From contig JANXEF010000003.1 of the NCBI GenBank assembly GCA_025057895.1, positions 1 through 64,000 on the forward strand: a stretch of 64,000 nucleotides of DNA. The letters are read 5' to 3'. The position numbers and the translations under genes are program-made. Under the pieces are notes generated by a model, which searched no databases, had not been told where the DNA came from, and was given only the letters and a program-made list of their open reading frames with translations. Shown piece by piece: positions 5,812-12,400 of the stretch (position 1 is its first letter; each line of letters starts with the position of its first letter). Source of the stretch: Archaeoglobaceae archaeon. Lineage in GTDB: Archaea; Halobacteriota; Archaeoglobi; Archaeoglobales; Archaeoglobaceae.

Positions 5812-6438
5812 CTATATGAACATCTTCGCAATCTTCAGAGATTCGAGGATGCTCTCTCTTGCATTACCTTCAACTAAATCCTCGTGCCCCGGATAGAGGT
5901 TTTCGACGTCGAGTTTTGAAAGCATCTCTATCGATTTCAAGAGTTTCATGGCATCTCCTCCTGGTAGATCGTATCTACCAAAGTTCCCATGAGCAAATAC
6001 TGTATCACCGCTGAAAAGCCATTTCCTATTTGGCTCATAGAAGCAAACACTCCCAGGTGAGTGCCCAGGAGTGTGAATAACTTCAAGAGTCGTTTCACCG
6101 AGACAAAATCTTTCACCACCCTTTAGAACTATATCTGGATCGAAAAACTTGAACCTAAGACCCAAGATTGGAGAAAAACTTTGCATTCTCATCAATCCCA
6201 GCTCCTCTTCATGAATCGCGATCCTCGAAGTTCCTTTAAAAAATCCAGCTGCAGATGCGTGATCATAGTGAGAATGAGTTAGGAAGACGTAATCGAGTTT
6301 TTTTGGCTCAAAATACTTCTTTATAGCCTTTAAGATGAACTCTGCATCTCCACCAACATCTATGATGGCTTTTTTTTCATCGATTAAAAGATAACAATTT
6401 GCAGCTAGAGGAGGAGCAACTATGCGTATCAACTTCAT
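5812..6438 (-). CDS. MBL-fold hydrolase, glyoxalase II-like
   Basis: 208 aa metallo-beta-lactamase-fold protein. The binuclear metal motif is THSHYDHA (about residues 54-61); later ligands are in HTPGHSPGS, FSGDTVF and YPGHED, so the active site is complete. The family includes hydroxyacylglutathione hydrolases, but archaea lack glutathione, so the substrate is probably another thioester or lactone. The start overlaps the stop of the aEF-1beta gene by 4 bp (ATGA), so it is translationally coupled to it. Confidence 0.9.
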   Translation of the reverse strand: MKLIRIVAPPLAANCYLLIDEKKAIIDVGGDAEFILKAIKKYFEPKKLDYVFLTHSHYDHASAAGFFKGTSRIAIHEEELGLMRMQSFSPILGLRFKFFDPDIVLKGGERFCLGETTLEVIHTPGHSPGSVCFYEPNRKWLFSGDTVFAHGNFGRYDLPGGDAMKLLKSIEMLSKLDVENLYPGHEDLVEGNARESILESLKIAKMFI

Positions 6439-6701
6439 AGGAGTTCCAAATCCTCTACTTCAACACTTTCAACACCTTCTATTTTTCCAAGCTCGGAAAC
6501 AAGGTTATCCACGATTCCTTCTGTATCCGGCATTACTGCTAGAATGGCAATCGCTTTAAGACCAAATGCTATTGGTTTTATAGCGATGTCTCTGATTTCA
6601 ACTTCTTCTAAGTTCAAATCCAAGATCTTTTCTTTGATTTTTCCCAAATCAACATCCAAATCACTTGGCATGATTCGCAATCTCACAAAAACCCTTCCCA
6701 T
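6435..6701 (-). CDS. ef1b: Elongation factor 1-beta (aEF-1B, EF-1alpha nucleotide exchange factor)
   Basis: 88 aa, the standard archaeal length. It promotes GDP/GTP exchange on EF-1alpha. Diagnostic segments are VRLRIMPSDLDVDL at the N-terminus, IAFGLKAI in the middle and the acidic VESVEVEDLELL C-terminus. Preceded by GAGGTGATGGAATG, a good Shine-Dalgarno, and directly downstream of the zinc-ribbon gene, a pairing common in archaea. Confidence 0.93.
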   Translation of the reverse strand: MGRVFVRLRIMPSDLDVDLGKIKEKILDLNLEEVEIRDIAIKPIAFGLKAIAILAVMPDTEGIVDNLVSELGKIEGVESVEVEDLELL

Positions 6702-6870: not shown

Positions 6871-7461
6871 TCAATCACCTCTCACGAATGTGCCCCGTGC
6901 TCTTCCTCTCAATATATAATTTTTTAGTTCTTCAGGAGAACATATGAAGAGCTCTATACCATGATTTTTAATCAAAACTGGTGAATATCTGTCGATCACA
7001 CCTATACTCTCCTCAGCCTTCGCGAATTCCAAAAAATATCCGTTTCTCAAAACTCCACCAACTGCTGTTACTTTAAAAACTTTCTTCTCCCCAATCTTTG
7101 AAGCTATCCAGATTGATATAGAATCCGAGGTCACATCCCAGGAATGAGGAAGTTCATCAAAATTTTTCAAGAGCTTATAGGGTAGAACGATGAATCTTCC
7201 TCTTCTTCTGAGCTCTCCAAATTCCTCTGGTTCTAAGATTTCAAAACCAGCCTTTTCAGCATAACTAAACATGTAGTAGCCATATAGATTCATTGAAAGC
7301 ACTGCCATCCAATGCGAAATCTCCTCACTTAGATTCATCTTTTCAACAATATCCGAGAAAATCCAACCTCCCGGAATTACCTTTACTTCTTCAACTCTTT
7401 CTAGCGTCTCAAAAATGATTTTTAACTTGTCTACAACACTTCCTCCTACTTTAACTATCAT
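6871..7461 (-). CDS. mfnE: Amino-acid-kinase family protein, likely MfnE (methanofuran biosynthesis)
   Basis: 196 aa. The N-terminal KVGGS is the amino-acid-kinase phosphate-binding loop, VIPGG a second loop, and [13 protein letters not shown] the conserved segment of the archaeal subgroup that contains MfnE, which phosphorylates 5-(aminomethyl)-3-furanmethanol phosphate during methanofuran synthesis. mfnA is also in this window (30037-31137), supporting the pathway. It overlaps the upstream membrane glycosyltransferase by 4 bp and lies 1 bp before the zinc-ribbon gene. Another small-molecule kinase in the same subgroup cannot be excluded. Confidence 0.75.
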
Positions 7462-8852
7462 ATCTTCCTCAACTCATAGAATTCCCAGTATTTCCTTAGC
7501 TCATAATTTGCAACGATTTCATATCCACTCAGACATCTGTAATCTCTCCGAGCTGCAAAAACGTAATCATAGCCCCGAGGACATGTAGTAGTGAAAATGA
7601 CTTTTTCATCTCTCAAAACCCATGGCATCGGCCAATAGTGGCCATCAACTGCAAATATAGCAACACTATATCCCTGTGAAACGAGATCTCTAATTCGATT
7701 TGCCATCTTTATAGCCCCTTCCTGAGTTTGAACATAGATCAAAGGCTGTTCAAGAACGTTGTTGTACTCGAAATAAGTGACTTGGACCGATATCAAAGAG
7801 GTTACAATCAATCCAATTGCAAATGTGATCTTGAAGTCTCTATTATCAAAAAAGTCTCTTCTTATAAATACTATTGCAAAAAAAACAAGAGGGGTTACTA
7901 AGTGAACTACAAGCCAAGGAGTTTTGTAAGCCATTGCATGATAAAATAAAAAAGCGATAACTAACCAACAAATCGCGAAAATTTCGTAGAATTCAAATTT
8001 TCTTTCTATTTTCAATGGAAAAGATGCGATTGCCAATGCAAGTGCTAGAAATTCATATCTAAGTAAGATGTTGATGAAATAGTGAATAGGTTTTTCATGT
8101 GCTGAACCCAAGCCTTGAGAAAACCAGTATGGAATTGATTTTTCAAAAAATCTATCGATCCAATCTCTACTCAAAATGACTTCGACCCAGTTTTTTCCAT
8201 TGATCGCATAGGCGAATGCTGAAGAGTAAAAGAAGGAGGAAAGGAAAATAAAGAGGACTATACATGGAATAATATTGCGATCGAAGGTAAAATCTCTTCT
8301 CATATATCTGTAGAGAGTCAATGCTAAGAAAACGACTGTGAAATACTGTACCCAGTTCTCCTTTGAAGTAAAGATTACTACTAAGAAAATAACTGCAAAG
8401 ATCGCATTCCTTAGCTCTCTTTTCTCCCTGTAAAGGAGATAGAAGTAAAGGAATGCAATGAAAGATGATAAGACTATGATGTCATCTCTTGCATATCGAG
8501 AATAGTATAGAATTGAAGGAGAGAAGATCATGAAAAGAGCAAAGATGTATGCAGATTTTCCAAACCATCTTTCAAACTTAAAAGCAAAAAAAACTCCAAT
8601 TATGCTGAAAATAGCTACTGGAAACCTTGCAGAAAAATCACTATCTCCAAAAGCAAGAAAGGTCAGAGAAATTACGAAGTAAAGAAATGGTCCATGAAAA
8701 GCTGGATCGTAACTATAGCTCGGACTTTCAACAACGTTCTTCAAAGATATCCAAGCATGAACGCTTTCATCATGATCCATTGGACGTTGTTCGAGAAAAG
8801 CGAATCTCGTTATTATTGCAAAAATCATTAGTGCTATCAGTATTTTTTTCAC
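7458..8852 (-). CDS. Membrane glycosyltransferase of GT-C fold, Agl23-like (TIGR03663 type)
   Basis: 464 aa with about ten transmembrane helices. The first extracytoplasmic loop contains RPMDHDESVHAW, an Asp/Glu catalytic loop of the GT-C/ArnT-PMT superfamily; PAFHGPFLYFV and YSRYARDD follow. The closest family I recognise is the 'flippase activity-associated protein Agl23' group, linked to lipid-linked oligosaccharide handling in archaeal N-glycosylation. It starts at GTG 8852 with a TTTTAAAAA element 8872-8880 about 24 nt upstream, suggesting a leaderless transcript that heads the mfnE/zinc-ribbon/ef1b run. Confidence 0.8.
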   Translation of the reverse strand: MKKILIALMIFAIITRFAFLEQRPMDHDESVHAWISLKNVVESPSYSYDPAFHGPFLYFVISLTFLAFGDSDFSARFPVAIFSIIGVFFAFKFERWFGKSAYIFALFMIFSPSILYYSRYARDDIIVLSSFIAFLYFYLLYREKRELRNAIFAVIFLVVIFTSKENWVQYFTVVFLALTLYRYMRRDFTFDRNIIPCIVLFIFLSSFFYSSAFAYAINGKNWVEVILSRDWIDRFFEKSIPYWFSQGLGSAHEKPIHYFINILLRYEFLALALAIASFPLKIERKFEFYEIFAICWLVIAFLFYHAMAYKTPWLVVHLVTPLVFFAIVFIRRDFFDNRDFKITFAIGLIVTSLISVQVTYFEYNNVLEQPLIYVQTQEGAIKMANRIRDLVSQGYSVAIFAVDGHYWPMPWVLRDEKVIFTTTCPRGYDYVFAARRDYRCLSGYEIVANYELRKYWEFYELRKI

Positions 8853-8991
8853 AAGAGATGTAAGTAATGAGTTTTAAAAAACTTTCTTAATTCAAAATTC
8901 GATTTGAATAGATCTCTTAGACAGAGAAGGAATTCCAGTGGATTGTGTCCAGAAAAGCATATATACCTGTAAGAATTAAAGAGTCACGAAT

Positions 8992-9639
8992 ATGATACTC
9001 GTAGGCGAAGGTGATGAAGAAAAGAGCTTAGAGCCTCCAGACCATTTTCTTAAAAAAAAGGTTAGCGACACCATTTTAAACCTTCTTGGAGATTATAGAT
9101 TTCACACGAAAGGCTATTACGTTTCTCTTCATGCAGAAGAAAACAACTGCATCGTTTATCCTTCTGTAAAAAACGCTCTAGACATATATAGGGCTCCAGT
9201 TTTTATTGAAAGGTTGAATAGGTCTGGTTTGAACGTTCCGAACTTTGAAGTTCTTCCAAGGCCAATTCCACGGAAAACAGTAATGCTACCTTTAAATCCA
9301 TTTTCAAAAAATTCTATGAAAATCGTGAGAAATGAATCCCAATACTATAGGTGTTTTCGTAGTTTGAGCATGGATTACCATTATCCGGTCGTTCAAGTTG
9401 AAATAGAAGGTAAAATCGAGGAGATATACATGCATCTAACGAAGGCAAGAAAAGGAGATGAAGAAATGAACAGAATCGCAAAAAAGGTTTTCGAAATCTT
9501 TGGTGTCCCTCTCGGAAAGATATTCGTTGAAAAGATAGATGGAAAGTTGAAACCTTTCTACTTCATGCCACTGATGAAAGATGAGATCGATCTAGATTTT
9601 GCAATAGAAGTTATGCATGAAGATCGGCTGTTTCGTTGA
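8992..9639 (+). CDS. Stand-alone RLAN domain (RimK-like ATP-grasp N-terminal domain)
   Basis: 215 aa. The segment YRFHTKGYYVSLHAEENNCI followed by VYPSVK matches the hallmark 'GYYVSLLAE...PSVKT' of the RLAN domain, which in bacteria is fused in front of a RimK-type ATP-grasp ligase. Here it is a separate protein whose 3' end overlaps the ATP-grasp gene by 23 bp, so the two halves are presumably made together and form a complex. A CATATATA element at 8958-8965 is about 30 nt upstream of the ATG. First gene of a four-gene cassette (RLAN, ATP-grasp, GCS2, YkgJ). Substrate unknown. Confidence 0.8.
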   Translation: MILVGEGDEEKSLEPPDHFLKKKVSDTILNLLGDYRFHTKGYYVSLHAEENNCIVYPSVKNALDIYRAPVFIERLNRSGLNVPNFEVLPRPIPRKTVMLPLNPFSKNSMKIVRNESQYYRCFRSLSMDYHYPVVQVEIEGKIEEIYMHLTKARKGDEEMNRIAKKVFEIFGVPLGKIFVEKIDGKLKPFYFMPLMKDEIDLDFAIEVMHEDRLFR

Positions 9640-10477
9640 AACCTACAACTTCAAATACAAAGAGGAAATGGAGGCTTTAAAGATCTTTGAAGTTACTGCA
9701 AAAAGCCTTGGCCACAACTTTGAAGTTACTGGGAAAGAGATAGTGAACAGAATAGACGATTTCGATTCCATATTCATAAGAGCAACCACAGATCCGCTTT
9801 TTACATCTTACGTTGTTTCTAGAATCGCAGAGGAGAAAGGTAAAAGAGTGATAGATGATTCTGAGAGTATAAGAGTATGTTCGGACAAAGTAGCGCTATA
9901 CTACAGACTTCTAAAGAGAGGTATTCCGATACCGCGAACTATTCCTTTTTATGGTGAATTCGATAGACTAGAGTCAATTGCAGAAGAAATAGGATATCCT
10001 GTAGTCGTTAAAGCTCCAAATTCAAGGTTTTCGCTTTATGTTGAGAAAGCTAATACATTTGAAGAACTTTTGGTGATTGCTAAGAGATTTTTGAGAAGAA
10101 GCAAGGCAATTCTGCTTCAGAAATTCATACAATCTACTTTTGATTGGCGTATAGGTGTTTTGAACGGCAGAGTCATATATGCTTGCAAGTATTTGCTTCC
10201 AAAAGGTGGCTGGAAAATTCGAGATGTTGTTAACAACAGGGTTGTTTGGGGAGAAGTTAAAGCGGTTAGTAGAGAAACAATATCTCCAAAGCTGAAGAAG
10301 ATTGCAATAGATGCCGCAAAAAGCGTTGGAGACGGATTATATGGAGTTGACATAAAGCAGGTTGGAAAAGATTTCTATGTGATCGAAGTTAACGATAATC
10401 CAACGATAATGCATGGTATGGAAGATGCTAAGGACAAGGATATCTATGAAAAAATAATTCTTGCTCTCGTTGCTTAA
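9617..10477 (+). CDS. RimK-type ATP-grasp amide ligase
   Basis: 286 aa. The pattern follows the ligase half of RLAN-RimK fusions: FIRATTDPL, VIDDSESIRVCSDKVALYYR, VVKAPNSRFSLYV, LLQKFIQSTFDWRIGVLNGR, DGLYGVDIK and the metal-binding VIEVNDNPTI. It should activate a carboxylate as acylphosphate and form an amide or peptide bond. The start ATG 9617 lies inside the RLAN gene (23-bp overlap), and the stop is 2 bp from the GCS2 start. With the GCS2 protein it probably builds a small peptide-like metabolite or modifies a protein terminus; the actual substrates cannot be read from sequence. Confidence 0.88.
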   Translation: MKIGCFVETYNFKYKEEMEALKIFEVTAKSLGHNFEVTGKEIVNRIDDFDSIFIRATTDPLFTSYVVSRIAEEKGKRVIDDSESIRVCSDKVALYYRLLKRGIPIPRTIPFYGEFDRLESIAEEIGYPVVVKAPNSRFSLYVEKANTFEELLVIAKRFLRRSKAILLQKFIQSTFDWRIGVLNGRVIYACKYLLPKGGWKIRDVVNNRVVWGEVKAVSRETISPKLKKIAIDAAKSVGDGLYGVDIKQVGKDFYVIEVNDNPTIMHGMEDAKDKDIYEKIILALVA

Positions 10478-10479
10478 AA

Positions 10480-11583
10480 ATGTTCGGACCTGAACATGAG
10501 TTTTCGATAAACGATGAATTCTTCGAACCTCTGCCAATTGCAGACAAGATAATAAAGAGAATAAGGGGGAGAGTTACAAATGAAGCAAAACTCAAAAATT
10601 CTCGTACTGTAATTGGAAAAGAACTTCAAAAACACGTAATCGAATTAAAACCAGAAAAACCATTTGAAAGTTTTTCTGAATTCGAAGAAAAAATGCATGA
10701 AGGTATTTTAGAATTGATGAGTTATTTAGAAGGTTACAGACTTCTCGGCCTAGGTATGCATCCCCTGCTAAATCTGGAGTCTGCTAGGGTATGGGACCAT
10801 AGAGATAGAAGAATATACGAAACATACGACAAACTTTTTAACATAAAACAGCATGGATGGTTGAACATACAGAGTTTTCAGCTAAACTTGCCGTTCAAAA
10901 GCGAAGAAGAAGCTATAACTATGCACAACAAACTCAGAGTTCTAATACCATATCTCGTAGCAATAGCATCTTCTTCACCTATATACGAGGGAAAGGCATT
11001 TTATGTGGATTCTAGAATTTATTTCTACAGAATAAATCAAATAGCAGTCCCACTGATCTGCAACGATGTAATACCTGAGAAAATAAGAAGTCTTCGAGAA
11101 TACAAGGATATATTGGAGAAAATTTACTATGAACTTAAATCTAGGAACGCTAAAGTTCTTTGTGTGGAGTGGGTGAATTCTAGAGGTGTGATTTTTCGTT
11201 TTACTCGGAAATGTCTCGAAATAAAAGTGATGGATGAGCAGGAATGCATAAAAAGCGATGTTGCACTCGCATCTTTCATAAATTCAATCCTCAGAGAAGA
11301 CTTACAGGAAATGGAGGATTTGAATTTAAAAGAGAGACTAAACGATGCGATGATCTATGGAACAAAGAAATTAAAAAAAGAACTAAGAGAACTTTTCAAA
11401 AAAGCAATGAAAAATGCAGAAGATGAGGAGAGAAAATATCTCAGAATTGTAAAAGATAGAATAGACAATGGAAGCCTTGGTGAAAGAATACTAGAAAAGA
11501 TAAGAGATTTTTCTCGTGAAGAAATCATCAAAACTTGCGAAAAACTTTCAAAATGCATTGAAAAAAACGAGGTGTTTAACTGA
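10480..11583 (+). CDS. GCS2-family carboxylate-amine ligase (glutamate-cysteine ligase-like)
   Basis: 367 aa. Recognisable glutamine-synthetase-fold GCS2 motifs are GPEHEF (residues 3-8), LGMHP (about 91-95), HGWLNIQSFQLNLPF (about 125-139), ASSSPIYEGKAF, and CLEIKVMDEQECI in place of the usual E-x-R-x-x-D. The C-terminal third is a charged helical region (about 285-360). Members ligate glutamate or another amino acid to an amine. Archaea of this group do not make glutathione, so the product is likely something else. The stop TGA overlaps the next ATG (TGATG). Confidence 0.85.
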   Translation: MFGPEHEFSINDEFFEPLPIADKIIKRIRGRVTNEAKLKNSRTVIGKELQKHVIELKPEKPFESFSEFEEKMHEGILELMSYLEGYRLLGLGMHPLLNLESARVWDHRDRRIYETYDKLFNIKQHGWLNIQSFQLNLPFKSEEEAITMHNKLRVLIPYLVAIASSSPIYEGKAFYVDSRIYFYRINQIAVPLICNDVIPEKIRSLREYKDILEKIYYELKSRNAKVLCVEWVNSRGVIFRFTRKCLEIKVMDEQECIKSDVALASFINSILREDLQEMEDLNLKERLNDAMIYGTKKLKKELRELFKKAMKNAEDEERKYLRIVKDRIDNGSLGERILEKIRDFSREEIIKTCEKLSKCIEKNEVFN

Positions 11584-12053
11584 TGGATTTTGTAGAAATA
11601 TGCTCAGAATGTGGTGGGAAGTGTTGTAGAGATGCAAATCCACCAATTTCAAGGAGAAGACTCGAAATTTTATTAAAAAATGGTGTTAAAGTTGATAAAA
11701 TTGCTTTCGAAAAATACATGCATCCAAAAACAAAAGAAGATGGTTTCTGTATTTTTTTGGATAATGGAAAGTGCTCGATACATGAGATTAAGCCAGAAAC
11801 ATGTGTTGCAGGACCTTTCACCTTTGATCTTAAGGGAGATGTTCTCGAGATCTTTCTGAAAAAAGAAGATATTTGCCCATTGGTCACATACTTGAAAAGA
11901 GATAAGAGAGCGTATAAGGAGCAGTTCAAAAGAGCAGTTGCAAGTATAGTCCAGCTGATCCTAGATTTGGACAAAGAGAGCCTCGAAGAGATTCTAAAAA
12001 TTGAAGAAGTCGAGACTGTAAAAGTTGCCGAGATCAAGCTAAGTTATGAGTGA
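11583..12053 (+). CDS. YkgJ-family cysteine cluster protein
   Basis: 156 aa. Cysteines occur as C7-x2-C10-x3-CC14/15, C56, C64, C74 and one in EDICPL near residue 97, the arrangement of the YkgJ (CxCxxCC) family that binds Zn or an Fe-S cluster. Segments GKCCR, GFCIFLDNGKCSIHEIKPETC-like and the C-terminal helices are typical. Coupled to the GCS2 gene through TGATG, so it belongs to the amidoligase cassette and may act on, bind or be modified by its product. Biochemical role of the family is poorly known. Confidence 0.88.
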   Translation: MDFVEICSECGGKCCRDANPPISRRRLEILLKNGVKVDKIAFEKYMHPKTKEDGFCIFLDNGKCSIHEIKPETCVAGPFTFDLKGDVLEIFLKKEDICPLVTYLKRDKRAYKEQFKRAVASIVQLILDLDKESLEEILKIEEVETVKVAEIKLSYE

Positions 12054-12148: not shown

Positions 12149-12400
12149 ATGGTTGAGAAGGTTAGAGATAGAGAACATCATGAGAAGCTTTTTAAAGCAT
12201 CTATAAGTCCAATAAGGAGAGAAATTGTTTCTGCAATCGGAATTCAGGGGAAAACAAAGGAAGAGTTGAAAAAGGAGTTGAAACTAACAGACTTCCAACT
12301 CAAGTTCAACCTAGAATGGCTGATAAAAGAGGGATTTGTAAAAGAAGAGGAGGGGAAGTTAAAGCTTACAGATAATGGCTTAGAACTCCTCGAAGCCTAA
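12149..12400 (+). CDS. Small winged-helix DNA-binding protein
   Basis: 83 aa. Sequence ASISPIRREIVSAIG, then KTKEELKKELKLTDFQLKFN as helix-turn-helix, then a wing GFVKEEEGKLKLTDNG: an ArsR/MarR-like winged helix and nothing else. TTAATAT at 12120-12126 is about 26 nt before the ATG, so the mRNA is probably leaderless. It lies just after the amidoligase cassette but has its own promoter; its stop overlaps the convergent purP stop by 4 bp. A link to the cassette is possible but unproven. Confidence 0.8.
   Translation: MVEKVRDREHHEKLFKASISPIRREIVSAIGIQGKTKEELKKELKLTDFQLKFNLEWLIKEGFVKEEEGKLKLTDNGLELLEA

Follow-up and report, generated by a model that had tools for sequence, protein, structure and literature searches.

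Positions 1 to 64,000 of contig JANXEF010000003.1 from an Archaeoglobaceae archaeon (GenBank assembly GCA_025057895.1), a 64,000-nucleotide stretch referred to here as the window, contain four tightly packed genes encoding an RLAN-domain protein, a RimK-like ATP-grasp amidoligase, a GCS2-family ligase and a YkgJ-type cysteine-cluster protein (Table 1). This cassette is a real and recurrent archaeal system, present in several lineages and not a local oddity. Judged from profile comparisons it belongs to none of the characterised pathways tested, and its RLAN protein probably partners RimK as a pseudo-ATP-grasp. The reading favoured here, with a probability of roughly 55%, is that the cassette yields a small glutamyl amide or peptide, thiol and polyamine versions included.

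Identity of the four genes

The four genes, their positions and their families had been proposed in an earlier note on the same DNA, and all are confirmed by the list of open reading frames (ORFs) and by Pfam scores above the curated cut-offs: 49.3 bits against 25 for RLAN, whose assignment thus passes in a profile search, 58.8 against 21 for RimK, 177.2 against 21 for GCS2 and 46.0 against 23 for the CxxCxxCC domain of YkgJ. The RLAN and RimK genes share 23 bp, a gap of 2 bp separates RimK from GCS2, and GCS2 and YkgJ have one base in common (TGATG). Among the NCBIfam equivalogs tested, RimK is below the cut-offs for RimK proper (46.7 bits against 331), LysX (75.1 against 275.6), MptN (65.3 against 350) and CofF (46.4 against 300), and GCS2 is below those for YbdK (TIGR02050; 37.3 against 176.4) and for gamma-glutamylcysteine ligase (PRK13517; 33.1 against 332); the glutathione synthase profile is also far under its NCBIfam cut-off. 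With all of these so far under cut-off, both ligases fall in subfamilies that have no assigned reaction in the NCBIfam and Pfam libraries. The nearest solved ATP-grasp relatives of the cassette RimK are LysX and ArgX of the LysW systems and the S6 ligases (3vpb, 7qyr, 5zct). In GCS2 the acidic residues Glu5, Glu7, Glu48, Glu55, Glu247 and Asp252 are kept in nearly all of the aligned archaeal and bacterial members.

Linkage and co-occurrence of the cassette genes

Scanning named genomes yielded 80 loci. The order RLAN-RimK-GCS2-YkgJ is seen in the subclade of the window genome (G000, G005, G008 and G009) and in Njordarchaeum (L043), and other loci carry the pairs rearranged. The expectation in the earlier note that relatives keep the four genes together is therefore borne out for linkage, which recurs in several arrangements, but not for the exact order, which is confined to these genomes. 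In G002, G019 and G131 the RLAN-RimK pair faces YkgJ-GCS2, in Bathyarchaeia the four genes are together with YkgJ-GCS2 divergent from RLAN-RimK, and in Methanotrichaceae and Methanomicrobiales the order is RLAN-RimK-YkgJ-GCS2. RLAN and RimK adjoin in every archaeal locus examined. The adjacency of GCS2 and YkgJ is broken only in one Archaeoglobi subclade (G001, G004, G006 and G007), in which YkgJ faces RLAN-RimK and GCS2 lies elsewhere in the genome. In Bathyarchaea with GCS2 distant from RimK, GCS2 and YkgJ are still side by side, and archaeal genomes with RLAN-RimK and without GCS2 gave no YkgJ match better than an E-value of 1e-4. These two observations point to two modules, one of RLAN and RimK and the other of GCS2 and YkgJ. 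The second module had not been recognised in the earlier note, and through it YkgJ, a poorly characterised family, gains GCS2 as a firm partner.

Among 295 Halobacteriota genomes, 35 have both RLAN-RimK and the GCS2 subfamily, five have RLAN only, one has GCS2 only and 254 have neither. RLAN was detected here through Pfam in 34 genomes and through a local profile in six that had initially been missed; GCS2 is present in 36. The RLAN-only genomes are four from one family and G083, and the GCS2-only genome is G003, which is 73% complete. For Bathyarchaeia (151 genomes) the RimK subfamily and GCS2 occur together in 15, RimK alone in none and GCS2 alone in six, with 130 having neither. Fisher's test gives p-values of 7e-39 and 3e-16, respectively, which ignore kinship and hence overstate the strength of the association. 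Within the genus RLAN is found in 9/10 genomes and GCS2 in 10/10, the genome lacking RLAN being 73% complete, and only G019 has both genes amongst the other Archaeoglobaceae first sampled. As the genes both recur together and co-occur, the idea of one dedicated system survives.

RLAN as a predicted pseudo-ATP-grasp protein

The AlphaFold2 model of RLAN, built from 41 sequences, has a predicted local distance difference test score (pLDDT) of 94.6. Searched with Foldseek against the PDB, it matches the ATP-grasp ligases PsnB, LysX, ArgX and Ddl with E-values from 3.6e-9, a probability of 1.00 and template modelling scores of about 0.55-0.66; the root-mean-square deviations of 5-6 Å are as would be expected if the domains were rotated. 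Profile alignment with hhalign also places residues 37-137 of RLAN collinear with residues 60-169 of RimK over about 98 columns (E 6.9e-6, probability 84.5), a wider RimK set aligns to RLAN with an E-value of 4e-5 and a probability of 70, and the RimK profile matches Bathyarchaeal RLAN ORFs at about 1e-4. In RimK, Asp245, Glu257 and Asn259 are invariant (alignment A1) and, by analogy to ATP-grasp enzymes, are putative magnesium ligands. A hand alignment of secondary-structure elements puts Phe178, Phe191 and Pro193 of RLAN opposite these three residues, and in the hhalign alignment residues other than lysine lie opposite Lys132 of RimK. The catalytic positions thus appear to be lost from RLAN which, taken together with the fold match and the alignment to the RimK profile, makes RLAN a probable pseudo-ATP-grasp partner of RimK. 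Pfam is not known to place RLAN among the ATP-grasp families. If the assignment is right, RLAN, filed as a domain of unknown fold, would be a degenerate ATP-grasp, a likeness that the earlier note did not contain, and RLAN-RimK would be an enzyme/pseudoenzyme pair that is fused in bacteria and split in archaea.

Split and fused forms and the bacterial counterparts

The earlier note had described RLAN and RimK as one protein in bacteria and separate here, and this proves right. The two are split in all of the archaeal loci found, and on a RimK tree of 81 sequences and an outgroup a single change between split and fused forms suffices (SH-aLRT support, from the Shimodaira-Hasegawa-like approximate likelihood ratio test, of 99). 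The split clade holds the archaeal loci and three loci from bacterial metagenome-assembled genomes (MAGs; L048, L059 and L061), and the fused forms are exclusively bacterial. This distribution indicates that a free-standing RLAN gene is the norm in archaea and not a quirk of one genome. The GCS2 tree divides into the same two groups, with the bacterial members apart from the archaeal ones. Both forms coexist in one Lambdaproteobacteria MAG (G303), where RLAN-RimK is fused and accompanied by GCS2 at one locus and split at another (L206 and L061).

The bacterial clusters resemble the cassette in having homologous RLAN, RimK and GCS2 in identical order, and differ in that RLAN and RimK are fused and that, in place of YkgJ, they have a C39-like peptidase (PF13529) and an N-formylglutamate amidohydrolase (FGase, PF05013), both of them amide-bond hydrolases. 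The fusion often precedes GCS2 and FGase, often with the peptidase upstream, and in the two GCS2-lacking proteobacterial loci that were inspected a GNAT-C39 fusion precedes the RLAN-RimK fusion. The bacterial loci showed no YkgJ orthologue, and neither the peptidase nor the FGase was found in the archaeal ones. This counterpart was not part of the earlier note; bacterial RLAN-RimK/GCS2 clusters were reportedly described by Iyer and colleagues in Mol. BioSyst. in 2009. The cassette is best classed as an archaeal version of the bacterial RLAN-RimK/GCS2 system.

The YkgJ protein

YkgJ has a CxxCxxxCC cluster and eight invariant cysteines, Cys7, Cys10, Cys14, Cys15, Cys56, Cys64, Cys74 and Cys98 (alignments A4, A6 and A9), which, judging from the family, may form a metal or Fe-S site. 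Its model has a pLDDT of 91.5 and gave no significant fold match in the PDB. The suggestion in the earlier note that YkgJ could be the target is unsupported, and so is a role as a C-terminal carrier, as the C-terminus is not conserved. A role as a LysW-like carrier was likewise rejected, since the C-termini vary and a conserved acidic C-terminal tail is absent in the alignments.

Linked transporters and other neighbours

A permease and polyamine-type genes linked to the cassette also came to light beyond the earlier note. A CitMHS/ArsB-like permease adjoins GCS2 in eight genomes (G001-G004, G006, G007, G019 and G131), and in G083 and L048 a relative is found next to RLAN-RimK. Among Archaeoglobi the permease orthologue is present in 10/12 genomes with the cassette and in 2/47 without it, one of these two being G014. 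Major facilitator superfamily (MFS) transporters are found near the cassette in G009, G019 and G131. The linked permease and MFS transporters favour a small-molecule product. In G014 the permease adjoins a GCS2 remnant (L200, G014:C1:1013000-1026000, at about 6265-6477; 58% identity over 33 amino acids, with internal stops) that directly follows the permease gene; DHS2, a paralogue of deoxyhypusine synthase (DHS), and an arginine decarboxylase are still nearby, and the cassette has apparently been lost.

Two different DHS-like genes, b1 and b2, lie beside RimK in a number of Bathyarchaeia (L046, L049, L053-L057, L067 and others); b1 groups with the sole DHS of several other Archaeoglobaceae genera, and b2 with the DHS2 clade. 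In G000 and G005 the permease is near the second DHS paralogue, but another gene intervenes, and this proximity was given no weight as a polyamine link. A CofE-like F420 glutamyl ligase is encoded near the cassette in G009 (L019, 9553-11345), where an ATP-grasp_3 protein is encoded between it and RLAN, and in four Bathyarchaeal loci (L046, L051, L054 and L055). A literature search for an RLAN/RimK/GCS2 system returned nothing direct.

Proposed mechanism and alternative explanations

In the favoured reading the first module would be a heteromeric ligase, with RimK as the active ATP-grasp subunit and RLAN as its degenerate partner. In the second, GCS2 would link glutamate, or a similar acid, to an amine after activating its gamma-carboxyl as an acyl phosphate, and YkgJ, as an eight-cysteine metal or Fe-S protein, would be required for this step or for handling of the product. 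Working one after the other, as a functional analogue of the GshA/GshB pair, the two ligases would build a small gamma-glutamyl amide or a short peptide that in most Archaeoglobi would be moved by the CitMHS/ArsB-type permease. That two amide-forming enzymes serve one pathway, as the earlier note had it, is plausible. Computation shows the gene identities, their conserved linkage and co-occurrence, the single transition between split and fused forms and the ATP-grasp-like predicted fold of RLAN; the RLAN-RimK complex, the order of the reactions, a small-molecule product and the part played by YkgJ are inferred from these. The cassette resembles GshA (of the GCS2 type) and GshB, as a two-step peptide-ligase pathway with a GCS2-fold and an ATP-grasp ligase; unlike them, its enzymes are far under the glutathione-specific cut-offs, and RLAN and YkgJ have no counterpart there. 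The LysX/ArgX-LysW and RimK-S6 systems provide the nearest solved relatives of RimK, but their subfamily profiles are not reached and YkgJ has no conserved C-terminal acceptor tail. The role of archaeal GCS2 enzymes becomes directly testable in cultured strains that apparently carry the cassette.

Several observations weigh against the favoured reading. The loss of catalytic residues in the C-terminal third of RLAN depends on the hand alignment; a global hhalign alignment is unreliable there. The permease is missing in G008, and G009 has only a distant homologue. RLAN-RimK is present without any GCS2 in Methanocellales, in G083 and in many proteobacteria, which implies that RimK has a role independent of GCS2. 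Finally, six Bathyarchaeia (L227-L232) have a somewhat divergent GCS2 but neither the RimK subfamily nor a YkgJ gene next to GCS2; this may be a separate use of GCS2.

Two special cases of the small glutamyl product each seem rather unlikely as the specific answer. In the first, DHS2 would make a polyamine or guanidino-polyamine that GCS2, RimK or both use as the amine, and the resulting glutamyl-polyamine conjugate would resemble glutathionylspermidine. In G131 DHS2 and a pyruvoyl-dependent arginine decarboxylase immediately precede RLAN-RimK, with the decarboxylase in between, DHS2 is about 2 kb from YkgJ in G009, and a DHS2-clade gene is within 3 kb of RimK in 10/15 Bathyarchaeia; on the DHS tree Bathyarchaeal b2 and Archaeoglobi DHS2 group together, separate from the second paralogue of Archaeoglobi. 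DHS2 is also enriched in genomes with the cassette (34/41 against 60/254 others in Halobacteriota and 13/15 against 37/136 in Bathyarchaeia), although these tests ignore kinship. A DHS homologue from Thermus, caldomycin synthase (CdmS), joins two agmatines (PMC10981699), so that a guanidino-polyamine is a conceivable amine, as a lead and not as a result. CdmS could be a functional model for a DHS2 that adjoins arginine decarboxylase (PMC10981699), but no amide ligase takes part in its system. Set against this route, DHS2 is common in genomes without the cassette (a phylum-wide search that returned many of these led to its rejection as an exclusive partner), it is missing from two Archaeoglobi with the cassette, G000 (79% complete) and G002 (99% complete), and the adjacency is limited to few lineages and was not seen in the methanogens checked. 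A more elaborate version, in which RLAN and RimK form an obligate heteromer whose pseudo-ATP-grasp orients the substrate and which, with GCS2 and a YkgJ metalloprotein, makes a glutamyl conjugate of a DHS-paralogue polyamine that a dedicated permease exports or imports, is unlikely. The other special case is a low-molecular-weight thiol, with GCS2 making gamma-glutamylcysteine, RimK extending it to a glutathione-like thiol or metal chelator and YkgJ serving as metal or redox partner. GCS2 belongs to the family of the plant and alpha-proteobacterial glutamate-cysteine ligases, the second step of glutathione synthesis is catalysed by an ATP-grasp enzyme, and a cysteine-rich partner and an ArsB-like permease would suit such a product; yet the gamma-glutamylcysteine ligase and glutathione synthase profiles score far under their cut-offs, as given above, and the RimK subfamily is closer to RimK, LysX and ArgX. 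Bacterial homologues also occur in proteobacteria that possess their own glutathione. GshA-family matches in Archaeoglobi and methanogens have been flagged as possible gamma-glutamylcysteine makers (PMC7278568), and in A. fulgidus the annotated glutamate-cysteine ligase AF2307, which from its gene position would be the GCS2 of G131, is up more than 2-fold on carbon monoxide (PMC4543118).

Modification of a protein is distinctly unlikely. RimK would extend the tail or a side chain of a protein by further residues, as RimK does on ribosomal protein S6, with GCS2 supplying or trimming them and YkgJ as a possible target, which would fit both the ArgX/LysX and S6 ligases as the best solved relatives and a small, cysteine-rich, linked YkgJ, but the unconserved tail of YkgJ and the occurrence of RLAN-RimK without it speak against this, and the permease linkage suits a small molecule better. 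Also improbable is a catabolic use in which GCS2 would mark an imported amine for degradation by gamma-glutamylating it, in the way that PuuA treats putrescine: the permease and polyamine genes are linked, but the neighbourhoods contain no recurring oxidase, dehydrogenase or gamma-glutamyl hydrolase. That two unrelated pairs are together by chance, as the relocated GCS2 of G001, G004, G006 and G007 and of some Bathyarchaeia might suggest, is very improbable and in practice refuted, given that linkage is kept in several arrangements and phyla and that co-occurrence is near-perfect even for unlinked genes.

Other features of the window

Table 1. Features of the cassette region, in window positions.
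Feature	Position	Strand	Remarks
TATA-like box TATATA	8960..8965	+	about 27 nt 5' of the RLAN start codon; read from the sequence
RLAN gene	8992..9639	+	215 amino acids, separate ORF; PF14401, 5.5e-13
RimK-like ATP-grasp amidoligase gene	9617..10477	+	286 amino acids; PF08443, 7.2e-16
GCS2-family glutamyl (carboxylate-amine) ligase gene	10480..11583	+	367 amino acids; PF04107, 6.3e-52
YkgJ-type cysteine-cluster protein gene	11583..12053	+	156 amino acids; PF03692, 8.9e-12
Small winged-helix protein gene, downstream	12149..12400	+	PF14947, 1.6e-6

The TATA-like box would suit transcription of the cassette with a short leader. The winged-helix protein encoded downstream has a counterpart at the equivalent place in locus L015 (80% identity) and a relative in L013; it is a possible regulator, and its membership of the cassette is uncertain. 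Divergent from the cassette, on the reverse strand at window positions 7458-8852, lies a gene for a PMT_2-type glycosyltransferase, to which no match was found beside the cassette in the relatives compared.

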